Shown here: positions 37,254 through 50,049 of the stretch, piece by piece
Numbering within the stretch: position 1 is the first letter of the stretch
Layout of the letters: each line of letters starts with the position of its first letter
Origin: Leucobacter chromiireducens subsp. solipictus
GTDB lineage: Bacteria; Actinomycetota; Actinomycetes; Actinomycetales; Microbacteriaceae
Reading direction: 5' to 3'
Length of the DNA stretch: 64,000 nt
Assembly (NCBI RefSeq): GCF_016758195.1
Contig: NZ_QYAC01000007.1
Location: forward strand, 140,385-204,384
Program-made: the position numbers and the translations under genes
Notes under the pieces: generated by a model
The model's database searches: none
Seen by the model: only the letters and a program-made list of their open reading frames with translations
What the model was told of the DNA's origin: nothing

Positions 37254-37270
37254 CCCCGACCCATCGCGGC

Positions 37271-37324
37271 GAGCACGCATTTTGGCACCTTTCCCGTCGT
37301 GGGAAGGTGCCAAAATGCGTGCTC
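37271..37324. terminator. Long palindromic element, copy 1 (bidirectional terminator)
   Basis: Perfect 21-bp arms at 37271-37291 (GAGCACGCATTTTGGCACCT at the start) and 37304-37324, with a 12-nt centre. It sits between convergent genes, 17 bp after one stop and 35 bp from the other. A second, degraded copy lies at 49992-50049. Confidence 0.75.
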
Positions 37325-37358
37325 GGCCGGGTGGCGGGCTCGGGGGCGCGGGTGAGAG

Positions 37359-38639
37359 CTAGGCCCGCGCGAGCAGCTCGGCGCTCGGGGCGTAGGCGCG
37401 ATAGCTCTGCTGGATCGCGATCTGGTCCGCGAGGTACTTCGCGTCGTGCCACACGCCCCAGATGAAGCTCGAGCCGCGGCGCGACTGCCAGGGGAGTCCG
37501 AGGAAGTACACGCCCGGCTCGCGGGATACGCCACGCTGATGCACCGGTCGGCCGAGCTCGTCGAATGCGTCGACCTGGAGCCAGCTGTAGTCGGCGCGGA
37601 ATCCGGTGGCCCACACGATCGAGGTGATGCCGGCCGCGGCGAGGTCCAGCTCGAGGATCGGGTCGGTGACGCACGCCGGATCCGGGCCCAGCTCGCGGGC
37701 CGTCGGTTCCTCGGGGAGGTCGAGGCCCATGCGCTCGATGTAGGCGTCGGCCTCGTCGAGCAGCGCCAGGTAGTTTTCGTCGCCACCGCGAATGTTCGTG
37801 GCGAGGTCGGTGCCGAAGCGCATCACGCCGTCCTCGTACGCGTTCGCGCGGCCCACGAGTGTGATCCCGTCGGCGGCGAGATTGCGGAAGTCGATGGTGC
37901 GCCCGCCATCCGCCCCGCTGACGGCGATCGTGACGTGTTCCGCGCCCTCCGCGGGCGTGGCCGCATCCCACTTGCCCAGCACCCCGAGCCACCACACGAA
38001 ACTGCGGTTGCGGTAGCGCTGCGGCGGGCGATCGTGCGGCCCGACGGCCAGGGTGACCTGGCGACCCGCCTGACGGAGTTCGTTTGCGATCTGCACCCCG
38101 GAGGAGCCAGCCCCGACGACGAGCACGCCCCCGTCCGGGAGCTGCTGCGGGTTGCGGTAGCTGGCGGAGTGCAGCTGCGTCAGGCCGGCGCGCTCGGGCA
38201 CGATGGGCGGGATCGCGGGGACCTGGAACGCGCCCGTGGCCGCCACGATGTAGCGCGCCCGGATCGAGCCGTCGGAGGTCTGCACCTGGAAGCCTGCCGC
38301 GTGGGGCAGTTTCTGCACGGACTGGACCTCGACGCCGCAGCGGATCGGGGCGTCGATCATGCGCGCGTACGTTTCGAAGTACGCGGCGACCCGCTCCTTC
38401 GGGGCGAACGCGTCCTGATCGAGGTCGTCGAATTCGAGGCCGGGGAAGCGGTCGTGCCAGGCGGGACCGTTCGCGACCAGGGAGTCCCACCGTTCGGAGC
38501 GCCACCGCTCCGCGATTCGATGCCGCTCAACGACGATGTGGGCCACGCCCTGCGCGCTCAGGTGCTCGCTCATGGCGACGCCGGCTTGCCCGGCGCCGAC
38601 GACGAGGACTTCGGTGACCTCGGGTGCTGTGGTCGGCAT
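37359..38639 (-). CDS. Flavin-dependent monooxygenase (FMO/CzcO-like)
   Basis: 426 residues from ATG 38639, with GGAGA 7 nt ahead. Two Rossmann motifs, VLVVGAGQAGVAMSEHL for FAD near the N-terminus and VLVVGAGSSGVQIANEL for NAD(P)H in the middle, plus ERWRSERWDSLVANGPAWHD. The arrangement matches FMO and Baeyer-Villiger-like oxygenases, which hydroxylate nitrogen, sulphur or carbon. In context it may make the first attack on the substrate of the RidA/aminotransferase cluster, because its promoter carries the same LysR-type box (38799-38821). The substrate is unknown. Confidence 0.87.
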   Translation of the reverse strand: MPTTAPEVTEVLVVGAGQAGVAMSEHLSAQGVAHIVVERHRIAERWRSERWDSLVANGPAWHDRFPGLEFDDLDQDAFAPKERVAAYFETYARMIDAPIRCGVEVQSVQKLPHAAGFQVQTSDGSIRARYIVAATGAFQVPAIPPIVPERAGLTQLHSASYRNPQQLPDGGVLVVGAGSSGVQIANELRQAGRQVTLAVGPHDRPPQRYRNRSFVWWLGVLGKWDAATPAEGAEHVTIAVSGADGGRTIDFRNLAADGITLVGRANAYEDGVMRFGTDLATNIRGGDENYLALLDEADAYIERMGLDLPEEPTARELGPDPACVTDPILELDLAAAGITSIVWATGFRADYSWLQVDAFDELGRPVHQRGVSREPGVYFLGLPWQSRRGSSFIWGVWHDAKYLADQIAIQQSYRAYAPSAELLARA

Positions 38640-38777
38640 GATTCGTTCTCCGCTCGAATTGGGGTCGATGCGGATCGCCGGCGCGGGGCAGCAGTGCACT
38701 CGGGGCCGGGATCCGGCCGGGGCGCGGAAGGTGCGGCCCGGATATGCACCAGCAAACCCCAGGGTTCGAGCGGGATG

Positions 38778-38783
38778 CCAATA
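38778..38783 (-). promoter_or_regulatory. -10 hexamer of the monooxygenase gene
   Basis: TATTGG on the minus strand, beginning exactly 22 nt after the G of the GAT half of the LysR-type box. The same distance is found at 39857 and 43784. The transcript would carry a leader of about 130 nt. Confidence 0.55.
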
Positions 38784-38798
38784 CACATTCGCGGAGCA

Positions 38799-38821
38799 CT
38801 GCATCGGTTTCAATGATGCAG
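38799..38821. promoter_or_regulatory. LysR-type box, copy 1
   Basis: CTGCATC-N9-GATGCAG, a perfect inverted repeat containing the LTTR core ATC-N9-GAT. It lies between the LysR gene and the monooxygenase gene and faces the latter. Same arms as copy 3 at 43746-43768. Confidence 0.75.
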
Positions 38822-39784
38822 CTAACCTGCAGGATCGGAAAAAGGCATGTCCGTGACCTTGGCTGGCGCGGGCACCTCGCCGGTGACCAGCTCGCGCACG
38901 GCGGCGGCCACCGCACGTGAGCGCGCGGTGCGCTCGACCTGCGCCAGCGAGGCCACCGTGACGTTGAGCCGGCGCACGTCATCGCTGATATCGACCACCA
39001 CCGTCTTGCTCCCGGTGTACGTCTCCTCGATGCGGGGGCGCTGGTTCAGGATCGCGAAGCCGCAGCCCATCGCGACCAGGGAGCGCACCGCCTCGTAGTT
39101 CTTGGTGCGGTACTTGATGTTCGGGGTGACGCCGACGTCACTGAACAGCTGCAGGAAGTACGTGCTGCTGTCGGGGAGATCGAGCAGGACGAGCGGATCG
39201 TTCGCGAGCTCTGCGAGGGCCACTTCCGCGCGCCCGGCGAGCGGGTGCGCGGTGTCGAGGATGACGTGTGGCGAGACCTCCGCGATGAACTCGTGGTCGA
39301 TCCCGTCGGGCGAGGTGAGGTCGTAACCGACGACGACCTCGGCCCGGCCCCCGCGCAGGGCCGCGAGGTTCTCCTCGTGATCGCCTTCAAGCACGTCGAC
39401 GGTGAGCTCGGGATAGCGCTCCTGCAGCAGCGCCAGGAGCTGGGGGAGCAGGAACGGGGTCAGCGTGTGGAAGCAGGCGATCGTGATCGCCCCGCGGACC
39501 TCGTTCTGCTCGGCCTGGATGTTTTCGATGGTGTCGGTGAGGAGGCCGAACAGGCGGTGGGTGTCGCGCAGCAGCTCTTCGCCGGATGCCGTCAGGATCA
39601 GGCCCTTCGAGTGCTGGCGAATGAACAGCGCGGTGCCGAGGGAGCGCTCGAGGTGCGAGATCGCCGTGGAGACCGCGGACTGGGCAACGTGGAGCTGCTG
39701 GCTCGCCGCGGTCATGTTCAGCGTCTTCGCGCACTCCGCGAAATAGCTGAGCTGGGTGAGCGTGATGGCAAAACGGTGGCTCAT
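38822..39784 (-). CDS. LysR-family transcriptional regulator of the RidA/aminotransferase cluster
   Basis: 320 residues. The N-terminal winged helix has QLSYFAECAKTLNMTAASQQ then LHVAQSAVSTAISHLERSLG, the LysR signature. The C-terminal co-inducer domain (about 95-300) begins GAITIACFHTLTPFLLPQLL. A GGAGG lies about 10 nt ahead of ATG 39784. It is divergent from ridA and adjacent to three matching ATC-N9-GAT boxes. The inducer is probably the substrate or an intermediate of the pathway. No second LysR gene is visible in this part of the window, so it is the natural candidate for these sites. Confidence 0.9.
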   Translation of the reverse strand: MSHRFAITLTQLSYFAECAKTLNMTAASQQLHVAQSAVSTAISHLERSLGTALFIRQHSKGLILTASGEELLRDTHRLFGLLTDTIENIQAEQNEVRGAITIACFHTLTPFLLPQLLALLQERYPELTVDVLEGDHEENLAALRGGRAEVVVGYDLTSPDGIDHEFIAEVSPHVILDTAHPLAGRAEVALAELANDPLVLLDLPDSSTYFLQLFSDVGVTPNIKYRTKNYEAVRSLVAMGCGFAILNQRPRIEETYTGSKTVVVDISDDVRRLNVTVASLAQVERTARSRAVAAAVRELVTGEVPAPAKVTDMPFSDPAG

Positions 39785-39818
39785 GCGGGGGATCCTCCGG
39801 CGGTGGGGGCACGGCTGT

Positions 39819-39862
39819 GTGCATCTGAATTATCGATAGCCTAGCTTCGTTTTGAGTATTTT
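39819..39862 (+). promoter_or_regulatory. LysR-type box, copy 2, and ridA promoter
   Basis: GTGCATC-N9-GATAGCC (39819-39841) keeps ATC-N9-GAT but has weaker outer arms. TATTTT (39857-39862) begins 22 nt after the G of GAT, the same as in copies 1 and 3. A longer inverted repeat TGCATCTG (39820-39827) / CAGATGCA (39864-39871) encloses the promoter. It lies in the divergent region and probably also serves lysR autoregulation. Confidence 0.7.
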
Positions 39863-39933
39863 ACAGATGCAATTTCAGTGTTGAGAATGGTGCTCAGGAC
39901 CCCGTTCATCCCGCAACTCAACGAGGAGACACC

Positions 39934-40365
39934 GTGACGGAAACGACGCACCTGCGCCTGCGGAAGTTCAACACCCGCGAGACCTACCCGGAGCAGAACC
40001 TCGACAACGACCTGTGCCAGGCCGTGGTGGCGGGCGGGGTGGTCTACCTCCCCGGACAGATCGGGCAAGACCTCGACACCCGCGAATCGGTCGGCATCGG
40101 GGACGTGACCGCGCAGACCGAGCAGGCCATGCGGAACATCGCCATGCTGCTGGAGGAGGCGGGCAGTAGCCTGGCCGACATCGTGAAGGTGACGATCTAC
40201 ATCATCGACCCGCGCTACCGCGAGGACGTCTACCGCACGGTCGGGAAGTGGCTGAAGGGCGTCTACCCGGTGTCCACCGGCATCGTGGTCCAGGCGCTCG
40301 CACGCCCCGAGTGGCTCGTCGAGATCGACGCCACCGCGGTGCTCAGCGATGGGGGCCGGGCGTGA
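39934..40365 (+). CDS. RidA-family enamine/imine deaminase
   Basis: 143 residues from GTG 39934, with GAGGAG 7 nt ahead. Trimeric cytosolic fold: VVYLPGQIGQDL, then QAMRNIAMLLEEAGSSLADI with VKVTIYIIDPRY, and the active-site Arg in ARPEWLVEIDATAVL. RidA proteins hydrolyse reactive enamines and imines released by PLP enzymes or oxidations. At about 15 residues longer than the archetype with an N-terminal extension, it belongs to a pathway-specific subgroup. First gene of the rightward RidA-DUF1028-M20-ALDH operon. Confidence 0.88.
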   Translation: MTETTHLRLRKFNTRETYPEQNLDNDLCQAVVAGGVVYLPGQIGQDLDTRESVGIGDVTAQTEQAMRNIAMLLEEAGSSLADIVKVTIYIIDPRYREDVYRTVGKWLKGVYPVSTGIVVQALARPEWLVEIDATAVLSDGGRA

Positions 40366-41039
40366 CTTTTTCACTGATCCTCCGCGACCCCGTAACGGGG
40401 GAATTCGGATCCGCGATCTCCTCCTCTTCGCCCGCGGTTGCCGCGCGCTGCGTGAACCTCGCCGACGGGGTCGGCGGCGCGCACTCCCAGAACGTGACCG
40501 ACCCGCGCCTCGGCCCCGCGCTCCTCGCCGAGCTCGGTGCCGGTGCCACCGCGCAGCAGGCCGTCGACCGGGTCGTTGCGACGCAGGATCCCGCGACGAT
40601 CGGCTACCGCCAACTGCTGGTGCTCGATGCGGCAGGCCGCGCCGCCGTGTACTCCGGGGACCGCGCGCTCGGGATCTTTGGTGCGGCCAGCCGCGAGAAC
40701 GCGGTCGCGGGCGGCAACATGCTCGCGAGTCTCGACGTGCTCGACGCGCTCGTGGACACGGCGCTGTCCGCCCCCGGCCGGATCGAAGAACGCCTCCTCG
40801 CCGCGCTTCAGGCCGCGGTCGCGGCGGGCGGGGAAGCCGGCCCCGTGCACTCCGCAGGGCTGGCGGTCGTGGGATCCGCCGGCTGGCGGATCACCGACCT
40901 CCGCGTCGACTGGTCCGAGGACCCGATCGGGGAGCTCGGGCGCGTGCTCGCGGAGTGGCTGCCGCAGCGCGATGACTACACCCACCGCGGGCTGAACCCC
41001 GCGGCCGCCCCCTCGTACGGGGTACCCGGAGATGAATGA
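40362..41039 (+). CDS. DUF1028 protein (Ntn-hydrolase-like)
   Basis: 225 residues from GTG 40362, overlapping the ridA stop by 4 bp. VTFSLILRDPVTGEFGSAIS is the typical DUF1028 start, followed by VNLADGVGGAHSQNVTDPRL and LDAAGRAAVYSGDRALGIFG. The family is placed with N-terminal-nucleophile hydrolases, though the activity is not established. Being sandwiched between RidA and an M20 hydrolase suggests amide or lactam hydrolysis. That role is inference. Confidence 0.85.
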   Translation: MTFSLILRDPVTGEFGSAISSSSPAVAARCVNLADGVGGAHSQNVTDPRLGPALLAELGAGATAQQAVDRVVATQDPATIGYRQLLVLDAAGRAAVYSGDRALGIFGAASRENAVAGGNMLASLDVLDALVDTALSAPGRIEERLLAALQAAVAAGGEAGPVHSAGLAVVGSAGWRITDLRVDWSEDPIGELGRVLAEWLPQRDDYTHRGLNPAAAPSYGVPGDE

Positions 41040-42174
41040 CCCGCTGAAGTCGCGCGTTGCGGCGCGCGCCCGGGAGGTCGACGCCGAACTGATCGCGCTC
41101 TCGAACGATCTCCACGAGCACCCCGAGACGGGTTGGCAGGAGCACCGCTCCGCCGCCGCGGTCGCCGCGGTCCTCGCCGCGCACGGCTTCGACGTGGAGC
41201 AGCCCTACCTGGGCCTCGAGACCGCCTTCCGCGCGGTGCGCGATCCGGCATCCGCGACCCGTTTCACGGTCGGCTTGCTCGCGGAGTACGACGCGCTCCC
41301 CGGCCTCGGGCACGCCTGCGGCCACAATCTCATCTCGGCGATGTCCGTCGGTGCGGCGCTCGCGCTCGCGGCCGCGGCCGACGAGGTCGGGATCGCGGTG
41401 GAGGTGATCGGCACCCCCGCCGAGGAGGGTGGCGGCGGCAAGATCGCGCTGCTCGACCGCGGCGCGTTCACGAACCTCGACTTCGCACTGATGGCGCACC
41501 CCGCCCCCGTCGACGTGGCCGAGGCCCGGCCCTTCGCGGTGACCCACTGGCACGTCCAGTACGACGGCCGCGCCGCGCACGCCGCCGCGTACCCGGAGCG
41601 CGGGACCAACGCGAACGACGCGTTCCTCATCGCGCAGGTGGCGCTCGGTTTGCTCCGGCAGCAGCTGCCCGCGACGGTGCGCGTGCACGGCGTACAAACC
41701 CGTGGCGGCGAAGCGCCCAACGCGATCCCGGAGCGCACAGAGGGGCGCTGGTACGTCCGCGCCGAGACGACCGAGCAGCTCCTCGCTCTCGAAGCGCGGG
41801 TGCGTGCGTGCTTCGAGGCCGGCGCGCTCGCCACGGGCGCGCGCCTCACCATCACGCCGGAGAGCGAGCGCTACGCCGAGATGCGCACCGACGAGGCCGC
41901 GCTCGACCGGTACCGCGAGAACGCGACCGCGCTCGGCCGAAACTTCGACGTCGATCCGGCCGCCGCCACCATGAACCGCGCCTCGACCGACATGGGCAAC
42001 GTGTCCCAGCTCGTGAACGCGATCCACCCCTACATCGGAGTGGGTGGCGAGGCGAGCAATCACCAGCCCGCCTTTGCCGCGGCCTGCGTGGGCCCGGGGG
42101 CCGAGCAGGCGCTGCGCGACGGGGCCGTCGCGCTCGCCTGGACCGCGCTCGACGTGGCACGGAACCGCATCTGA
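41032..42174 (+). CDS. M20-family metallo-amidohydrolase
   Basis: 380 residues, ATG 41032 overlapping DUF1028 by 8 bp. Metal-site segments LHEHPETGWQEHRSAAAVAA, EYDALPGLGHACGHNLISA and GTPAEEGGGGKI are those of M20D amidohydrolases (p-aminobenzoyl-glutamate hydrolase, IAA-amino-acid and N-acyl-amino-acid hydrolases). It presumably cleaves an amide bond in the pathway. The final segment GVGGEASNHQPAFAAACVGP contains the C-terminal His ligand region. Start chosen by overlap and by GGAG at about 41022. Confidence 0.9.
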   Translation: MNDPLKSRVAARAREVDAELIALSNDLHEHPETGWQEHRSAAAVAAVLAAHGFDVEQPYLGLETAFRAVRDPASATRFTVGLLAEYDALPGLGHACGHNLISAMSVGAALALAAAADEVGIAVEVIGTPAEEGGGGKIALLDRGAFTNLDFALMAHPAPVDVAEARPFAVTHWHVQYDGRAAHAAAYPERGTNANDAFLIAQVALGLLRQQLPATVRVHGVQTRGGEAPNAIPERTEGRWYVRAETTEQLLALEARVRACFEAGALATGARLTITPESERYAEMRTDEAALDRYRENATALGRNFDVDPAAATMNRASTDMGNVSQLVNAIHPYIGVGGEASNHQPAFAAACVGPGAEQALRDGAVALAWTALDVARNRI

Positions 42175-42236
42175 TCCACCACTGAATCCCGGCGCCCCAC
42201 GCGGCGCGAGCACACCCACGGAGAAACGAGAACGAC

Positions 42237-43727
42237 ATGACCCGTACCCATGCCGAGTGGCAGGCCGCTGCGGCGGCCCTCGAGTTCGACGGCCGCGCCG
42301 TCATCGGGGGCACCCGCGTCGCCGCGAGCTCGGGGAAGACCATCGCGAAGACGAACCCCGCCACCGGCGAGGTGATCTCCCACATCCACGAGTGCGGCGG
42401 GGCCGAGGTGGACGCCGCCGTCGCCGCCGCCCGTGCCGCCTACGAGTCCGGGGAGTGGTCGCGGGCCGGTGCAGGTTTCCGCCGCGAACGCCTGCTGGAA
42501 CTCGCCCGCCTCATCGAGGAACGCGCCGACGAGTTCGCGCTCTACGACACCCTCGACATGGGCAAGCCGATCCGCGAGTCCTCGACGATCGATGCGCCCG
42601 GATCCGCGGCGCTGTATCGCTTCTACGGGGAAGCCGTGGAGAAGCAGGAGCACCTGATCCCGGTCACGCCCCCGGGTTCCACCGCGCTCGTGACGCGCGA
42701 GGCGCTCGGCGTGGTCGCCGTGATCGTGGCCTGGAACTATCCGCTCGAAATCGCGACGTGGAAGCTTGCCCCCGCGCTCGCCGCGGGCAACGCCGTCGTC
42801 GTGAAGCCGCCGGTGGAGGCCTCACACTCGACGCTGTTGTTGGCCGAGCTGGCCCTCGAAGCGGGGATCCCCGCGGGCATCGTCAACGTGGTCCCCGGAC
42901 GCGGCTCGGTCGTGGGGGCGGCGCTTGCCCTGCACGAGGACGTCGATATGCTCGCCTTCACGGGGTCCACCGAGGTCGCCAAACAGCTGCAGCAATACGC
43001 GGGGCAATCGAACATGAAGCGGCTCGCCCTCGAGGCCGGCGGCAAGAGCTCGAACCTGATCTTCGCGGACTGCGACGACCTGGCGCTCGCGGCGCAGAAG
43101 GCCGCGTTTGGCAGCTTCTACAACCAGGGTGAAGTGTGTTCGGCGAACTCCCGCATCTTTGTGGAGCGCGCGGTGTATGACGACTTCCTGCGGCTGTACG
43201 CCGAGGCCGCCCGGGCCTACGCGCCCGGGGATCCGCTCGACCCGGCCAGCGGGATCGGCTCGCTCGTGTCCGAGGCGCACGCGGACACCGTGTGGGCGAC
43301 CATCGAGAACGCCCGCCGGGACGGCACGATCGTCGCCGGTGGCACCCGGCCGGAGATCGCCGGATCCCGCGCCTTCATCGAGCCGACCATCGTGACGGAC
43401 GTGCCCGCAGACCACGAGGTGCACACGCGCGAGATCTTCGGGCCGGTGGCCGTCGTCACCCCGTTCGACACCGAGGAGGAAGCGATCGCGCGGGCGAACG
43501 AGACCCCCTTCGGCCTCGCCGCATCGCTCTGGACGGGCAGCCTGGCCCGGGCGCACCGCGTCTCGGAGCGCCTGGTCGCCGGCACGGTGTCCGTGAACAC
43601 GGTGGACGCCCTCGGCTTCACCACGCCGTTCGGCGGCTTCAAGCAGTCCGGGTTTGGCCGGGATCTCTCGGTGCACGCGCTCGAGAACTACACGGACTAC
43701 AAGACGACGTGGATGCAGTGGGGGTAG
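42237..43727 (+). CDS. NAD(P)-dependent aldehyde dehydrogenase
   Basis: 496 residues. Oxidises an aldehyde to the acid. The catalytic Glu is in LALEAGGKSSNLIF, the catalytic Cys in NQGEVCSANSRIFV, with the cofactor region VIVAWNYPLEIATWKLAPAL and FTGSTEVAKQLQ. It resembles gamma-aminobutyraldehyde / 4-hydroxyphenyl-type ALDHs, which act after an amine is turned into an aldehyde, consistent with an aminotransferase downstream. GGAGAAACGAG ahead of ATG 42237. Last gene of the first operon of the cluster. Confidence 0.93.
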   Translation: MTRTHAEWQAAAAALEFDGRAVIGGTRVAASSGKTIAKTNPATGEVISHIHECGGAEVDAAVAAARAAYESGEWSRAGAGFRRERLLELARLIEERADEFALYDTLDMGKPIRESSTIDAPGSAALYRFYGEAVEKQEHLIPVTPPGSTALVTREALGVVAVIVAWNYPLEIATWKLAPALAAGNAVVVKPPVEASHSTLLLAELALEAGIPAGIVNVVPGRGSVVGAALALHEDVDMLAFTGSTEVAKQLQQYAGQSNMKRLALEAGGKSSNLIFADCDDLALAAQKAAFGSFYNQGEVCSANSRIFVERAVYDDFLRLYAEAARAYAPGDPLDPASGIGSLVSEAHADTVWATIENARRDGTIVAGGTRPEIAGSRAFIEPTIVTDVPADHEVHTREIFGPVAVVTPFDTEEEAIARANETPFGLAASLWTGSLARAHRVSERLVAGTVSVNTVDALGFTTPFGGFKQSGFGRDLSVHALENYTDYKTTWMQWG

Positions 43728-43745
43728 GCGGAGATATCCGCCGAA

Positions 43746-43789
43746 CTGCATCTCAAACCACGATGCAGTGATCCGAAAATAACTATTTT
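43746..43789 (+). promoter_or_regulatory. LysR-type box, copy 3, and aminotransferase promoter
   Basis: CTGCATC-N9-GATGCAG (43746-43768), the same arms and spacing as copy 1, followed by TATTTT (43784-43789), which begins 22 nt after the G of GAT. Beyond the box, TATTTTACTGATGAATG resembles TATTTTACAGATGCAAT at the ridA promoter. It drives the aminotransferase-permease operon. Confidence 0.75.
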
Positions 43790-43867
43790 ACTGATGAATG
43801 ACGCGGTGTGACGATGGGTGCAGGACCCGCGACCCGTCCGGTCAATGCCGACTGAGAGGAACCCGAC

Positions 43868-45304
43868 ATGACCATGCAGCAGGAATTCTCCGACGTGAGC
43901 GCGCAGCTCACGAACACCCCGAGCGGGCTCGCCGAGATCGCGAAGCGCCACCTGGTGATGAACTTCACCCCGGCGAGCAAGTACCGCGACGACGAGCTCC
44001 CGGTGTTCGTGCGCGGCGAGCACTGCTCCGTGTTCGACGAGAGCGGCCGACGCTTCTTCGACGGCCTCGCGGGACTGTTCTGCGTGCAGCTGGGCTACAC
44101 GCACGGGGCCGAGGTCGGCGACGCCGTGCGCGATCAGCTGGCGGCGCTCCCGTTCCAGACCACGTGGAGCGTGGCGCACCCGCCCGCCGCGCTGCTCGCC
44201 CAGAAGATCGCGGAGCTCGCGCCCGGCGACCTGAACCGCGTGTTCTTCGCCTCGGGCGGCGGCGAGTCGAACGAGGCCGCAATCAAGCTTGCGCGGCAGT
44301 ACCACATCACCCGGGGTGAGGGGACGCGCACCAAGTTCATCGCCCGCCGCGTCGCCTACCACGGCACCAGCTTCGGCGCGATGTCGCTGAACGGAATGAC
44401 GGACGTGCGCAAGATGTTCGAGCCCCTCATGCACGGGGTGCGCCACACGCACAACACGAAGCGCTACCGCCGTCCCGAGGGCGAGACCGCCGAGCAGACC
44501 ACGGCATTCCTCCTGGCCGAGCTGGAATCGCTCATCGTGCAGGAGGGTGCCGACACCATCGCGGCGATCATCATGGAGCCACTGCAGAACGCGGGCGGCA
44601 GCCTCACCCCGCCCACGCCGGACTACTTCCCGGGCGTGCGGGCGCTGTGCGACACGTACGGCATCCTGCTGATCGCGGACGAGGTCATCACCGGTTATGG
44701 CCGCCTCGGCTCCTGGTTCGGTTCGACCCACTACGGATTCCAGCCCGACATGATGACCTTCGCGAAGGGCATCGCCTCCGCCTACATGCCGCTGGGCGGC
44801 GTGATCGCGAGCGACCGGATCATCGAGACGGTGCTCGACGGACCGCTCGGCATGTTCAACCACGCGCTCACCTACGGCGGCCACCCGGTCGCCTGCGCCG
44901 CGGCACTGAAGAACCTCGAGATCATGGAGCGCGAAGGCGTCGTGGAGAACGTCGCCGAGCTGAGCCCGTACCTGGGGGAGAAACTCGCGGAGGTCGCGTC
45001 CCGGCACGCGGCGATCGTCGGTGACCTGCGCGGCGACGGCTTCCACCGCAGCTTCGAGCTCGTCACGGACCACGCTGCGAAGCGCTGGGCCGAGACGCCG
45101 CTGAACGCGGGCGACTTCGTCGGCGGCCACCTGAATCCGGCGCTTGCCGAGGCCGGGCTGCTCTGCCGGGTCGCGATTGACGCCGAGGGGAACCCGCTCG
45201 TGCAGGTGTCGCCCCCGCTCGTCATGACTCGTGCGGATATCGATGAGCTCGCCGGGCTCCTGGACCAGGCGTTTACCGCCGCGACGGCGAGCGCCGGGCT
45301 GTAA
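43868..45304 (+). CDS. Class III PLP-dependent aminotransferase (omega-amino-acid type)
   Basis: 478 residues. Motifs: RFFDGLAGLFCVQLGYTHGA, FFASGGGESNEAAIKLARQY (phosphate contact), IMEPLQNAGGSLTPPTPDYF, IADEVITGYGRLGSWFG, and the PLP Lys in MMTFAKGIASAYMPLGGVIA. The group includes taurine-pyruvate, beta-alanine-pyruvate and polyamine aminotransferases, which turn a primary amine into an aldehyde. That fits the aldehyde dehydrogenase just upstream. It is the first gene of the second operon, under LysR box 3, and ends before a double hairpin. Confidence 0.92.
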   Translation: MTMQQEFSDVSAQLTNTPSGLAEIAKRHLVMNFTPASKYRDDELPVFVRGEHCSVFDESGRRFFDGLAGLFCVQLGYTHGAEVGDAVRDQLAALPFQTTWSVAHPPAALLAQKIAELAPGDLNRVFFASGGGESNEAAIKLARQYHITRGEGTRTKFIARRVAYHGTSFGAMSLNGMTDVRKMFEPLMHGVRHTHNTKRYRRPEGETAEQTTAFLLAELESLIVQEGADTIAAIIMEPLQNAGGSLTPPTPDYFPGVRALCDTYGILLIADEVITGYGRLGSWFGSTHYGFQPDMMTFAKGIASAYMPLGGVIASDRIIETVLDGPLGMFNHALTYGGHPVACAAALKNLEIMEREGVVENVAELSPYLGEKLAEVASRHAAIVGDLRGDGFHRSFELVTDHAAKRWAETPLNAGDFVGGHLNPALAEAGLLCRVAIDAEGNPLVQVSPPLVMTRADIDELAGLLDQAFTAATASAGL

Positions 45305-45315
45305 TTCCGAGTGAC

Positions 45316-45370
45316 CCCCGGGGACCCTGCGTCGGGTCCCCGGGGTGGCGCGATTCGTCGCGCCATTTTT
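45316..45370 (+). terminator. Double hairpin with T tract between aminotransferase and permease
   Basis: Stem 1: CCCCGGGGACCC (45316-45327) / GGGTCCCCGGGG (45334-45345). Stem 2: GGCGCG (45347-45352) / CGCGCC (45359-45364), followed at once by ATTTTT. It looks like a true rho-independent terminator, yet the permease in the same direction follows 33 bp later with no promoter I can see, so partial termination is likely. Confidence 0.78.
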
Positions 45371-45402
45371 ACCCAACTTCAACGGCGAAATAGGGATCCC
45401 CC

Positions 45403-46827
45403 ATGAGCGAATATCCACGGCTGACGACGTCCACGACCAAGATCATCACCTTCGAACGGCGGCACATCCGGCCGATCCCCGACGACGAACGTCACGGGAC
45501 GACGCGCGGGCTCTTCTTCGTGTGGCTCGGGATCAACATGCTCCCGCTCACCATCGTCACGGGTGCCCTCGGGCCCACCGTGTTCGGGCTCTCGCTCGGG
45601 TGGACCATCGCCGCCGTGGTCATCGGCAACGTCGTCGGCGGTCTGGGAGCCGCGTTGCACGCCTCTCAGGGGCCGCAGCTGGGGATCCCCCAGATGCTGC
45701 AGGCGCGCGGGCAGTTCGGCTACTTCGGTGGCAGCCTGCTCGCGCTCATCGCGGTGATCATGTTCCTCGGCTTCTTTGCCTCCAACCTCGTGGTGGCCGC
45801 GCAGAGCTTCGCCGCGGTATTCCAGAGCGACAACATCAACATCGGCATCATCGTGTGCGCCGGGATCGCGCTGGTGGTCGCGATCTTCGGCTACGACCTC
45901 GTCCGCAAACTCATGGCCGTGTTCTCGGTGGTCATTGGGCTGCTCGTGGTCGTGTCGATCATCATCGCGGTCGCGAACCCCGCGACGTTCGTGCCGCACG
46001 CGGACCTCGGATACAACACCGCCGGGTTCTTCGGCATGCTCGCGATCGGCGTCACCTGGCAGCTCGCGTACGCCCCGTACGTCTCCGACTACTCGCGGTA
46101 CATGCCGCGCGAGGGCGGGGCCAAGCAGGCGTTCTGGGCCACCTACTTGGGCCTGGTCCTGGGCACCGTGCTCGTCATGCTGCTCGGCGCGCTCGTCGGA
46201 CTGACCACCGCGGACGGGGACACGATGGCCGCGCTCGGCCGCCTCCTCGGCGGCTTTGGCCCGGTCGTGCTTTGTGCGTTCGGGATCGCCTCCGCGGTCA
46301 TGAACTCCTCGAACATTTACTCCGGGGTGATGTCCTCGCTCACCGTGCTCGAAACGATCTCCGCGAAGATCCGGATCGATACCGCGAAGCGCATCCTGAT
46401 GACGGTGGCGTATGCGGTGATCGCCATGCTGGGCGCGCTCCTCGGCAAGGACAGCTTCCTGCTGATCTTTGGGGACTTCGTCACGCTGCTGCTCTACGTG
46501 CTGATCCCGTGGTCCGCGATCAATCTCGTCGACTACTTTGTGCTCCGCAAGGGCCACTACGCCGTTGACGACATGTTCCGGCGCGATGGCGGTCGCTATG
46601 GGCGCTGGGACTCGGCGGGCCTCGTGAGCTATCTGATCGGCATCCTCGTGCAGATCCCATTCATGGTGACCAGCCTGTACACCGGGCCGCTCGCCGAGCC
46701 GTTGGGCTTCGTGGACGTGGCCTGGATCTTCGGCTTCATCGTCCCGGGCGCGCTCTACTACCTGTGGCGGCGTGGCGGCGCGGCGGCGGAACTCCGCACC
46801 GCGGCGCGGGAGCGGGTGGCCGCGTGA
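45403..46827 (+). CDS. NCS1-family permease, first of two
   Basis: 474 residues, about 12 membrane helices. The nucleobase-cation-symport-1 features are FEREHIRPIP-like start (FERRHIRPIPDDERHGTTRG), FVWLGINMLPLTIVTGALGP, HASQGPQLGIPQMLQARGQF, and LLYVLIPWSAINLVDYF near the end. Substrates of the family are purines, pyrimidines, hydantoins, allantoin and thiamine. Here it probably imports the cluster's N-containing substrate. The next gene overlaps its stop by 4 bp. It is paralogous to the permease at 48515. Confidence 0.9.
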   Translation: MSEYPRLTTSTTKIITFERRHIRPIPDDERHGTTRGLFFVWLGINMLPLTIVTGALGPTVFGLSLGWTIAAVVIGNVVGGLGAALHASQGPQLGIPQMLQARGQFGYFGGSLLALIAVIMFLGFFASNLVVAAQSFAAVFQSDNINIGIIVCAGIALVVAIFGYDLVRKLMAVFSVVIGLLVVVSIIIAVANPATFVPHADLGYNTAGFFGMLAIGVTWQLAYAPYVSDYSRYMPREGGAKQAFWATYLGLVLGTVLVMLLGALVGLTTADGDTMAALGRLLGGFGPVVLCAFGIASAVMNSSNIYSGVMSSLTVLETISAKIRIDTAKRILMTVAYAVIAMLGALLGKDSFLLIFGDFVTLLLYVLIPWSAINLVDYFVLRKGHYAVDDMFRRDGGRYGRWDSAGLVSYLIGILVQIPFMVTSLYTGPLAEPLGFVDVAWIFGFIVPGALYYLWRRGGAAAELRTAARERVAA

Positions 46828-48503
46828 GCGCGCCGGATCTGGTCGTCACCGGTGCCCAGCTGTGGGCCCCGGCGCTCAGCGCGGACACGGCCGTCGCGGT
46901 GCGGGATGGTCGGATTGTGGCGGTGGGCAGCGACCGCGCGATCGGCGCCCTCGCCGCGCCACAGACCGAGCGGATCGATGCGGCGGGTGCGGCGCTGCTC
47001 CCGGGATTTCACGACGCGCACATTCACGCGCTCGCCGGCGGGCTCGCGCTGCTCGGCTGCGACCTGGAAACCGAGCACTCGCTCGACGGCTACGGCCGAC
47101 TCATCAGGGACGCCGCCGCGCTCGGCGAGCCCTGGGTGATCGGTGCCGGCTGGTTTGGGGACGTGTTCCCCGGCGGGCTCCCCACGCGGGAGCTCCTCGA
47201 CGAGTGGGTGCCGGACCGCCCCGCGGTGCTCACCAGCCACGACGCCCACGGCGTTTGGGTGAATACTCGGGCGCTGGAACTCGCGGGGATCACGGATGAC
47301 ACGCCTGATCCGCCGGCCGGCCGGATCGTGCGGAACGCCGACGGTGTTGCGACCGGCATGCTGCTCGACACCGCCGGGGAACTCGTCACGCGGCTCGCAC
47401 CACCGCGCGGTGCCGCCGAACAGCGGCGGGCGCTGCGTGCCGCGCAGGAGCGGCTCTTCTCCCTTGGGATCACGAGCTGGCACGACGCGATCCTGGGCGA
47501 CTACCTCACCCTGCCGGATAGCTTGCCGACGTATCTCGAGACCCGTGCGGACGGGAGCCTGCGGGCCCGCGTGACCGGGTCGATGTGGTGGCCGCCGACG
47601 GCCGGGCCCGCGTACCTGCCCGAGATGCTCGGGCGGATCGATGCGGCGCGCGGCGCGGGGTTCGCGGTGTCGAGCGTCAAGATCATGCAGGACGGGATCT
47701 GCGAGAACTGCACGGCGGCGCTCATCGACCCCTACCGGGGAGTGTCGCCCGCGGTGCGCGGCGATTCGGTGATCTCGCCCGAGGATCTCGCCGAGATCGT
47801 GTGCCACCTGGATGCGGCGGGGCTCAGCGTCCACTTCCATGGCGTCGGGGACCGCGCGGTGCGCGAGTGCCTCGACGCGGTCGCGGCGGCCCGGGCGGGA
47901 GGCACAGGGGTGCGGCACCAGATCGCGCACCTGGACCTCGTCGATCCCGCGGACATCCCGCGGTTCGCGGAGCTCGGCGTCACCGCGAACCTGCAGCCAC
48001 TGTGGGCGCGCAACGACCAGGAGATCCTCGAGCGGAAGCTCCCGCTGCTGGGCGCAGAGCGGGCGCAGTTCCACTTTCCGTTCGGGTCCCTGCACCGCGC
48101 GGGGGCCCACCTCGCGATGGGAAGCGACTGGCCGGTGACGAGTCCGGATCCGCTATGGGGGCTGCACACCGCGTGCACCCGAACCGCGCCCGCGGCCGAT
48201 GTGCACGCACTGAACGCGGAATCCCGGGTCCCCGCGCTGCCGGATGAACAGCTCAGCCCGGAGGTGGCGATCCGCGCGTACACGCTGGGCTCCGCGGAGA
48301 TCTCGGGCGTCGCGGACCAGCTCGGGCGCATCGCGGTCGGCGCGCTCGCCGACCTCGTGCTCCTGAGCGGGCCGGTCGGGGCCGCTGGCGATTTCGACCG
48401 CGTGCGCGTTGCCCGCACCATCCTCGGCGGCACCACGGTGTACGCCGCACCCACCACGGACGACCGCGATCCCGAGCTGGCCTCACCGTCAGCTCGGGCG
48501 TGA
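46824..48503 (+). CDS. Metal-dependent amidohydrolase, YtcJ-like (amidohydrolase_3)
   Basis: 559 residues from GTG 46824, overlapping the permease stop. The metal-binding HxH is in GFHDAHIHALAGGLALLGCD, and the TIM-barrel continues through VSSVKIMQDGICENCTAALI, a region conserved in YtcJ proteins. A composite beta-sandwich is formed by both ends (DLVVTGAQLWAPALSADTAV and GRIAVGALADLVLLSG). YtcJ-type enzymes hydrolyse cyclic or linear amides. Its position between two NCS1 permeases suggests action on the imported compound. Confidence 0.87.
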   Translation: MSAPDLVVTGAQLWAPALSADTAVAVRDGRIVAVGSDRAIGALAAPQTERIDAAGAALLPGFHDAHIHALAGGLALLGCDLETEHSLDGYGRLIRDAAALGEPWVIGAGWFGDVFPGGLPTRELLDEWVPDRPAVLTSHDAHGVWVNTRALELAGITDDTPDPPAGRIVRNADGVATGMLLDTAGELVTRLAPPRGAAEQRRALRAAQERLFSLGITSWHDAILGDYLTLPDSLPTYLETRADGSLRARVTGSMWWPPTAGPAYLPEMLGRIDAARGAGFAVSSVKIMQDGICENCTAALIDPYRGVSPAVRGDSVISPEDLAEIVCHLDAAGLSVHFHGVGDRAVRECLDAVAAARAGGTGVRHQIAHLDLVDPADIPRFAELGVTANLQPLWARNDQEILERKLPLLGAERAQFHFPFGSLHRAGAHLAMGSDWPVTSPDPLWGLHTACTRTAPAADVHALNAESRVPALPDEQLSPEVAIRAYTLGSAEISGVADQLGRIAVGALADLVLLSGPVGAAGDFDRVRVARTILGGTTVYAAPTTDDRDPELASPSARA

Positions 48504-48514
48504 CAAGGAGAACC

Positions 48515-49954
48515 ATGACTCAGGAACCACCCGTCGTCACGAAGACATTCGTGCGATTCGAGCAACAACACATTCTGCCCATCCCCGAGACCGAGCGAAC
48601 GGGCACGAGCAGGTCGATCTTCGCCATCTGGGTGGGGCTCAACATGATGCCCCTCACCGTGGTCACGGGGGCCGTCGCGACGGGCGCCTACTCGCTGCCC
48701 ATCGGGTGGAGCATCGCCGCGCTCTTGATCGGCAACGTGATCGGGGCCTTCGGCTCGGCCCTGCACGCATCGCAGGGTCCGCACCTCGGGATCCCGCAGA
48801 TGCTCCAGGCCCGTGCCCAGTTCGGGTATCTCGGCGGCGGTCTCTTCGCGCTGATCGCCTTCATCATGTTCATGGGCTTCTTCGTCGGCATCCTGATCGT
48901 TGCGAAGGACGCGCTGCTCGCCGTGTTCCCGAGCGTGAACGGCTCGGTCGCAATCATCGGGTTCGCGGCCGTCGGCATCGTGCTGTGCGTGTTCGGCTTC
49001 GATTTGCTGCGCAAGACGATGGTGTACATCTCGATCCTCATCGCGGTCGCCGTGACGGTGTCCATGGTGATGCTCTGGCTGCAGCCCGAGGTGACCGCTT
49101 CCCGCACCGACGCGGAGTTCACCCTGGAGGGGTTCTTCGCGGTGCTCGCGATCGGGGTGGTGTGGCAGCTCGCCTACGCGCCCTACGTGTCGGACTACAC
49201 GCGGTACCTTCCGAAGCAGACGGGCCCGAAGACCGCCTTCTGGAGCACCTACCTGGGGCTCGTGCTGAGCTCGGTGTTCGTGATGACGCTCGGCGTGCTC
49301 CTCGGGGCCGCGAACCCCGACAATCCGCTTGCCGCGCTGAGCGATCACCTGGGCGGGCTCGGCCTCGTCGTGCTGCTCGTGTTCGCGGTCACCTCCGCGC
49401 TCATCAACGGCGTGGAACTGTACTCGGCCGTGATGAACGCGCTGACCGGAATCCAATCGAGCTTCCGGAACGTCATCATTACCTCCGGCACGCGCGTGTG
49501 GACCACGGTGGTGTGCGGGGTCGTCGCCACGGTCGTCGCCCTGCTCGGCCAGGGGGACTTCATGACGGCGTTCGACAACTTCCTCTCGCTCCTGCTCTAC
49601 GTGCTGATCCCCTGGTCCGCAATCAACCTCGTCGACTACTTCGTCGTCAAGAAGGGGCACTACACGATCGGCGACCTGTTCGACCGCACCGGCGGACAGT
49701 ACGGACGATGGAACGTCGTGGGGCTCGGGAGCTACGCGATCGGGTTCCTCGCGCAGGTGCCGTTCATGATCACGGCCCTGTACACGGGACCGATGGCCGC
49801 ACCGCTGCACAACGTGGACATTGCCTGGCTCGTCGGCTTCGTCGTGACCGTGATCGTCTATCTGGTCTGGGTGAAGCTCGCCCCGAACGGCGGCACCCGA
49901 GAGGTCGAGGACGCCGCCGCCGAGGCCGCCACGACCCACGAGCCGACCCGCTAA
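48515..49954 (+). CDS. NCS1-family permease, second of two
   Basis: 479 residues from ATG 48515, AAGGAG 4 nt ahead. It has the same core motifs as the first permease: RFEQQHILPIPETERTGTSR, LNMMPLTVVTGAV, HASQGPHLGIPQMLQARAQF, LLYVLIPWSAINLVDYFVVK. The two genes are clear paralogues, differing in the helix 3-4 region. Having two suggests two related substrates, or an importer and an exporter of a product. It ends the operon before a palindromic element. Confidence 0.9.
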   Translation: MTQEPPVVTKTFVRFEQQHILPIPETERTGTSRSIFAIWVGLNMMPLTVVTGAVATGAYSLPIGWSIAALLIGNVIGAFGSALHASQGPHLGIPQMLQARAQFGYLGGGLFALIAFIMFMGFFVGILIVAKDALLAVFPSVNGSVAIIGFAAVGIVLCVFGFDLLRKTMVYISILIAVAVTVSMVMLWLQPEVTASRTDAEFTLEGFFAVLAIGVVWQLAYAPYVSDYTRYLPKQTGPKTAFWSTYLGLVLSSVFVMTLGVLLGAANPDNPLAALSDHLGGLGLVVLLVFAVTSALINGVELYSAVMNALTGIQSSFRNVIITSGTRVWTTVVCGVVATVVALLGQGDFMTAFDNFLSLLLYVLIPWSAINLVDYFVVKKGHYTIGDLFDRTGGQYGRWNVVGLGSYAIGFLAQVPFMITALYTGPMAAPLHNVDIAWLVGFVVTVIVYLVWVKLAPNGGTREVEDAAAEAATTHEPTR

Positions 49955-49991: not shown

Positions 49992-50049
49992 CCGAGCACG
50001 CGATCTAGCACCTGCTGCCCGTGAAGAAAGTGCGAAATTGCGTGCTCGG
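49992..50049. terminator. Long palindromic element, copy 2 (one arm degraded)
   Basis: Outer arms CCGAGCACGC (49992-50001) and GCGTGCTCGG (50040-50049) are perfect. Read from the right, GAGCACGCAATTTCGCACTT matches copy 1 (GAGCACGCATTTTGGCACCT) closely, while the left inner arm has drifted. It lies between convergent genes, as does copy 1. Confidence 0.65.

Follow-up and report, generated by a model that had tools for sequence, protein, structure and literature searches.

A probably catabolic gene cluster of Leucobacter chromiireducens subsp. solipictus very likely forms a local regulon under its own LysR-type regulator, with a T-N11-A box predicted at about -65 and a putative second half-site by the -35 element at two of its promoters, and with a proposed activation of the sliding-dimer kind. 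The cluster lies in a stretch of 64,000 nucleotides (the window), to which all coordinates refer. Sequence comparison supports the regulon and its LysR regulator well. The original prediction saw one operator in three promoters of a regulon spanning about 12 kb, and this holds for the three promoters of one 12.6-kb cluster. Its observation of the boxes and their fixed offset is confirmed and is stronger than its author could know; its promoter elements appear to have been placed too far upstream.

The lysR gene (38822..39784, - strand) is flanked on one side by a gene for a flavin-dependent monooxygenase (FMO; 37359..38639, - strand), which is MSMEG_0569-like and scores below the MSMEG_0569 family cut-off. 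On its other side is the ridA operon (39934..43727, + strand), encoding RidA, a DUF1028 protein, an M20 amidohydrolase and an aldehyde dehydrogenase. The aminotransferase operon (43868..49954, + strand) encodes a class-III aminotransferase, an NCS1 permease, an amidohydrolase (Amidohydro_3) and another NCS1 permease. A profile search finds both parts of a LysR protein, the N-terminal helix-turn-helix (PF00126, 63 bits) and the LysR substrate domain (PF03466, 122 bits), each above its cut-off. Among NCBIfam models GltC, AlsR and others score highest for this LysR, all far below their cut-offs; its nearest protein among named records is that of Leucobacter sp. 7(1) (91%). For the M20 protein the nearest solved structure is Xaa-Arg dipeptidase (7yh4). 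The top-scoring family of the aldehyde dehydrogenase is PuuC, yet the score is under the PuuC cut-off. These are probably genes of a breakdown pathway; the family names alone suggest that an amide or amine is broken down via imine and aldehyde intermediates. No paper on DUF1028, on LysR-type regulators in Leucobacter, or on LysR together with RidA in Brevibacterium was found in the open-licence library searched, and a broader query for the gene set gave a single unrelated entry; the silence of this library is weak evidence. A perfect inverted repeat with CGAGCACGCATTTTGGCACCTT arms is found 3' of the monooxygenase gene (37270-37325), and an arm with one mismatch is found 3' of the last NCS1 gene (50027-50048), which places related palindrome arms at both cluster ends. 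Arms of the CGAGCACGCATTTTGGCACCTT type have eight matches genome-wide with up to three mismatches, and the control has none; they are possibly a terminator of the repeat type.

The three boxes are borne out by direct reading. CTGCATC-N9-GATGCAG, with its T-N11-A core, is present in the monooxygenase promoter (38799..38821, - strand) and again in the aminotransferase promoter (43746..43768, + strand). A weaker form, GTGCATC-N9-GATAGCC, lies between lysR and ridA (39819..39841, + strand). The 22-nt offset from the G of GAT (38805, 39835 and 43762) to a TATTnn hexamer is also as described: TATTGG at 38783 on the - strand, and TATTTT at 39857 and 43784.

It could be argued that the three boxes are alike by chance. 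In the window the bare ATC-N9-GAT core is indeed not significantly commoner than expected (15 sites against 11.4 +/- 2.9), and was rejected as evidence by itself. Nor is the 23-mer with up to three mismatches, which has 3 sites there, two of them exact, against 3.8 expected. Chance is nevertheless refuted, with next to no probability left to it, by conservation in 49 loci and by the uniqueness of the full geometry: ATC-N9-GAT-N19-TATTKK has three matches in the whole 3.54-Mb genome (3,537,946 bases), which are the three reported sites, and the reversed-pattern control has none. No further regulon members with the strict pattern are found elsewhere in this genome. TGCATC-N9-GAT alone gives 12 strand matches, 5 from the three cluster sites and 7 elsewhere. 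The conserved portion of the ridA box is the ATC/GAT core. At each of the four positions beyond it, the outer arms pair in only 8 to 16 of 46 ridA promoters; the operator therefore does not always include the long palindrome.

The box was tested on 34 loci of named genomes, 39 stretches from relatives and a 20-kb part of the window. These were fetched by LysR protein and not by box, and removal of duplicates by LysR DNA gave 49 distinct loci from Leucobacter and Brevibacterium. Four loci were left out: L092 (LysR below 50% identity), L110 (no LysR), and L111 and L144 (whose LysR fragments were too short to be checked for duplicates). Next to orthologues, the ATC-N9-GAT core with its 22-nt offset is conserved as the original prediction required. 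The strict geometry is found 5' of ridA in 49/49 loci and 5' of the monooxygenase in 46/49 copies, the other three having one mismatch (TTC for ATC). The 49 monooxygenase copies with an N-terminus come from 48 loci; L090 has two and L140 none. Of 29 aminotransferase genes, 23 have the strict site, one (L083) has TGTT for TATT, and five are without a site; these five directly follow the dehydrogenase gene, with gaps of -18 to 80 bp. Control upstream regions (DUF1028 49, M20 48, ALDH 45, NCS1a 12, amidohydrolase 13, NCS1b 27) give 0/194 exact matches and two with one mismatch, both 5' of NCS1b (L077 and L108). The box is not conserved merely through regional conservation, because no column of the ridA promoters from -50 to -13 reaches 60%. 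The geometry is unchanged in L103, where the monooxygenase and its box are about 1.8 kb from lysR. The tandem monooxygenase copies of L090 (13966 and 15481) each have their own box and TATTGG. In L074 (8133-9031), which is without an aminotransferase orthologue, a TATTTC box precedes an SDR dehydrogenase gene, followed by those for an NCS1 permease and an amidase; in L078, near 8859, a TATTTC box precedes another gene, with no aminotransferase orthologue shown.

The pattern also follows the regulator across genomes. Among 100 genomes (G000-G099) it is present in 45. A LysR orthologue (at least 46% identity) is encoded by 40, and 39 of these have the pattern, the exception being G071; six of the 60 genomes without an orthologue have one stray match each. 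By hand count, the 114 matches divide into 96 at the cluster, 12 elsewhere in orthologue genomes and 6 in the others; one of the 96 (G038:C518) was placed at the cluster by its letters only. The reversed-pattern control has four matches in total over the 100 genomes. One strict match outside the cluster is identical in two genomes of the same genus (G014:C14:138804 and G044:C7:163686), and could be a fourth regulon site there.

The adjacent LysR was proposed as the activator, and it stands as the likely regulator. The ridA box lies between the divergent lysR and ridA genes in 47/49 loci; in the other two (L091 and L109) the place of lysR beside the box is taken by the monooxygenase. A different regulator might read the boxes, given that this genome encodes 13 further LysR-like matches. 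Of the 100 genomes, the 40 with the LysR orthologue are also precisely those with the DUF1028 gene, so co-occurrence does not separate LysR from another factor. Against another regulator are the position beside lysR, the T-N11-A form of the box, which is the type of the LysR family, and the absence of the box geometry from the rest of the genome. Across 49 orthologues the helix-turn-helix is more conserved (0.89) than the ligand domain (0.72), in keeping with a constant operator, although LysR proteins usually show this difference. Control by another regulator is thus very improbable.

More distant LysR homologues are found in 13/394 genomes of the class (E<=1e-60, own genome included). Nine distant loci were scanned: one has the exact geometry, three have it with one mismatch (L146, L151 and L153) and five have none. 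The exact case, L155, is from the same family (LysR 41% identical), and its site lies between lysR and the monooxygenase gene. L153, from the same class (LysR 40%), has TGTT for TATT in the same arrangement. G071 has a LysR (46% identical) and DUF1028 and no strict site; its one-mismatch site (L146, 3581; GAA for GAT, then TATTTG) comes immediately after lysR, with the monooxygenase-ridA-DUF1028-M20 genes following it, and could be the operator in that relative. L151 (G218) has short DUF1028 and M20 matches near a LysR match with an internal TGA, and a one-mismatch box; the cluster may have decayed or been rearranged there.

Promoter elements were read from alignments gathered with the strict pattern; this selection fills the ATC, GAT and TATT columns in advance, but not the others. 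Removal of near-duplicates left 46 of 50 ridA, 23 of 24 aminotransferase and 42 monooxygenase promoters, in which offset 0 is the G of GAT. In ridA promoters a predicted -35 at offsets 25-30 reads TTTACA or TTCACA in 39/46 and TTTGCA, TTCCCA or TTTACG in the other seven. A hexamer nAnnnT (A2 and T6) is present in 46/46, at offset 48 in 38 and at 49 in 8. In the window the first of these elements is part of TATTTTACAGAT (39857..39868, + strand), which contains the -35 TTTACA (39860-39865) and a GAT half-site (39866-39868), the candidate activation site. The predicted -10, GAGAAT (39883..39888, + strand), would give a start near 39895. Aminotransferase promoters are laid out likewise, with a -35 of TTTAC followed by A, C or T in 16/23, and with the nAnnnT hexamer at offset 48 and TG at the extended -10 position, each in 23/23. 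Here TATTTTACTGAT (43784..43795, + strand) holds the putative -35 TTTACT (43787-43792) and the GAT half-site (43793-43795), and TGTGACGAT (43807..43815, + strand) is the predicted extended -10, with a start near 43822. The -35/-10 spacer is 17-18 nt in both classes, and none of the promoters listed has T as the first base of its -10. An independent promoter scan gives TTTACA-17-GAGAAT at 39860-39888 (9 of 12 matches); the aminotransferase and monooxygenase pairs proposed here are not listed by it. With the start predicted near offset 60 and the box centre at offset -5, the box would be centred at about -65 in ridA and aminotransferase promoters. Box and TATT are the same distance apart in 49/49 ridA promoters, though the -10 is found at either of two offsets, 48 and 49. 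The ridA gene of L091 and L109 has an in-frame ATG 7 nt past the -10, as might be expected of a leaderless message. A T-rich block at offsets 11-18 (T11, T15 and T18 in 46/46) is specific to ridA promoters and absent from the other two classes; monooxygenase promoters have CCGCGAA-like letters at offsets 11-17, where ridA has this block.

The original prediction took TATTnn itself as the -10, with the box overlapping the -35 region (centre at about -39) and LysR activating from there. TATTTT fits TAnnnT in 34/46 ridA and 20/23 aminotransferase promoters, and at the monooxygenase the upstream box and the box would then fall at about -70 and -39. The same hexamer is TATTTC in 12/46 ridA and 3/23 aminotransferase promoters, losing the T at -7; it is TATTGG in 41/42 monooxygenase promoters, and both L083 and L153, a relative at class level, have TGTT in place of TATT. 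The joint -35/-10 score, the weights of which are approximate, is lower at offset 22 than at 48/49 in all three promoter classes (5.4 and 9.0; 5.8 and 8.4; -0.05 and 3.7). A -10 at TATTnn also leaves unexplained the nAnnnT that is conserved 26 nt downstream of it at ridA and the aminotransferase, including the TG before 23/23 aminotransferase hexamers. This model of activation is accordingly quite improbable: the assignment of TATTnn as -10 is very probably wrong for ridA and the aminotransferase and is doubtful for the monooxygenase. Transcription, which had been expected to start about 7 nt after the hexamer, is now predicted to start about 38 nt after the beginning of TATT.

The same letters can be read on the opposite strand, where the block TATTTTACA...GACAAT at ridA would be the lysR promoter (TTGTCN-18-TAAAAT). 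Of three - strand pairs ending in TAAAAT that the scan gives on these blocks, one (TTCTCA-18-TAAAAT, - strand, 39887-39858) may be a lysR promoter. This is unlikely to account for the block, which recurs 5' of the aminotransferase gene where lysR is not adjacent, with TG in 23/23 in the aminotransferase direction. Two substitutions that are neutral for a ridA promoter would damage the lysR promoter: T27->C, seen in 12/46, would destroy A2 of TAAAAT, and C50->G the G of TTG. The ridA promoter and an opposite-strand lysR promoter may coexist.

The monooxygenase promoter is less clear. TTGGC is conserved at offsets 24-28; in the window TTGGCA (38776..38781, - strand) overlaps TATTGG and is the probable -35 (TTGGCN in 40/42), and TTGG is kept in L153 despite its TGTT. 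TTTGCT at offsets 49-54 (38751..38756, - strand; 35/42) is the best candidate for the -10, an uncertain one that is without A at -11. A hexamer with A2 and T6 at offsets 47-49 is found in 0/42, and no -10 position is convincing.

A second half-site accompanies the box at a pitch of 31-32 bp. GAT recurs at +31 from the box GAT in 44/46 ridA, 17/23 aminotransferase and 3/42 monooxygenase promoters; the background of such recurrence has a mean of about one sequence per position. In monooxygenase promoters it recurs upstream, at -31 (30) or -32 (10), in 40/42. The full T-N11-A partner is present at the +31 place in only 4/46 ridA, 0/23 aminotransferase and 4/42 monooxygenase promoters, and a complete AT-N10-GAT at -43/-31 in 26/42 monooxygenase, 0/46 ridA and 0/23 aminotransferase promoters. 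In the window this second, weaker half-box of the monooxygenase promoter is ATG-N9-GAT, 31 bp upstream and inside the lysR 3' end (38834..38848, - strand). At 31 bp, close to three turns of the helix, two LysR dimers would share one face of the DNA. We infer an RBS and an ABS at ridA and the aminotransferase, whereas the monooxygenase site would be extended upstream. The T-N11-A dyad expected of LysR-type RBS/ABS promoters is found in all three promoter classes.

The sequence itself shows the boxes, their geometry and conservation, the -35/-10 pair at two promoters and the location beside lysR; binding by this LysR, tetramer occupancy, the direction of regulation, the inducer and the start sites are inferred, as follows. 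A LysR dimer would be anchored on the T-N11-A box (ATC-N9-GAT), centred at about -65 at ridA and the aminotransferase; the second dimer of the tetramer would contact the GAT half-site 31 bp downstream, beside the -35 TTTACA. With an inducer from the pathway bound, the tetramer would relax or shift in the manner of the sliding-dimer model, giving RNA polymerase access to the weak -35/-10 pair. The partner half-site 31-32 bp upstream of the monooxygenase box would hold the tetramer further from that promoter. It is conceivable, if rather doubtful, that the tetramer layout is mirrored at a fixed 31-bp pitch, with the partner downstream at ridA and the aminotransferase and upstream at the monooxygenase, for opposite or differently timed regulation of the oxidising enzyme and the remaining pathway genes. 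If this is true, the cluster would have an LTTR with a visible conserved ABS half-site; the accessible portion of a 2016 paper states that no conserved ABS'' motif had been deduced for LTTRs (PMC4730206).

The published LysR layout, in the same portion of that paper, places the RBS near -65, with ABS sites at about -35 and -10 (PMC4730206). As far as the consulted parts of the sources describe them, BenM, DntR, AtzR and MmsR have such RBS/ABS promoters, and share with this cluster a T-N11-A box near -65 and a weaker second site near -35 (both predicted here), a divergent lysR and target operon, and catabolic genes (PMC4730206, PMC6441110). The letters of the box differ here, and the second site is a single GAT half-site (44/46 at ridA), which lies upstream at one of the three promoters. 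The comparison with NodD made in the original prediction holds for the ATC-N9-GAT core, going by the excerpt at hand; the nod box there is a 47-bp region (PMC5596368), and two motifs of the ATC-N9-GAT kind fit into 46 bp of the monooxygenase promoter. Unlike NodD, the present regulator belongs to an actinobacterial catabolic cluster, and its ridA and aminotransferase promoters have only one full box; no NodD model is among the best 25 of 56 families. CutR of Mycobacterium sp. JC1 is an actinobacterial LysR regulator too, with an inverted repeat at -60, but its box is T-N12-A, it is a stable dimer, and no ABS is identified for it in the portion of the paper available (PMC12609908).

The regulon is genuine and new, but of the well-known textbook LysR type. 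It offers an unusually clean natural data set, 49 loci with up to three promoters each, for the phasing of two LysR sites against the -35 and -10 elements. DUF1028, RidA and M20 proteins are brought together by it in one regulon, and a ligand screen with a single reporter could identify the pathway.
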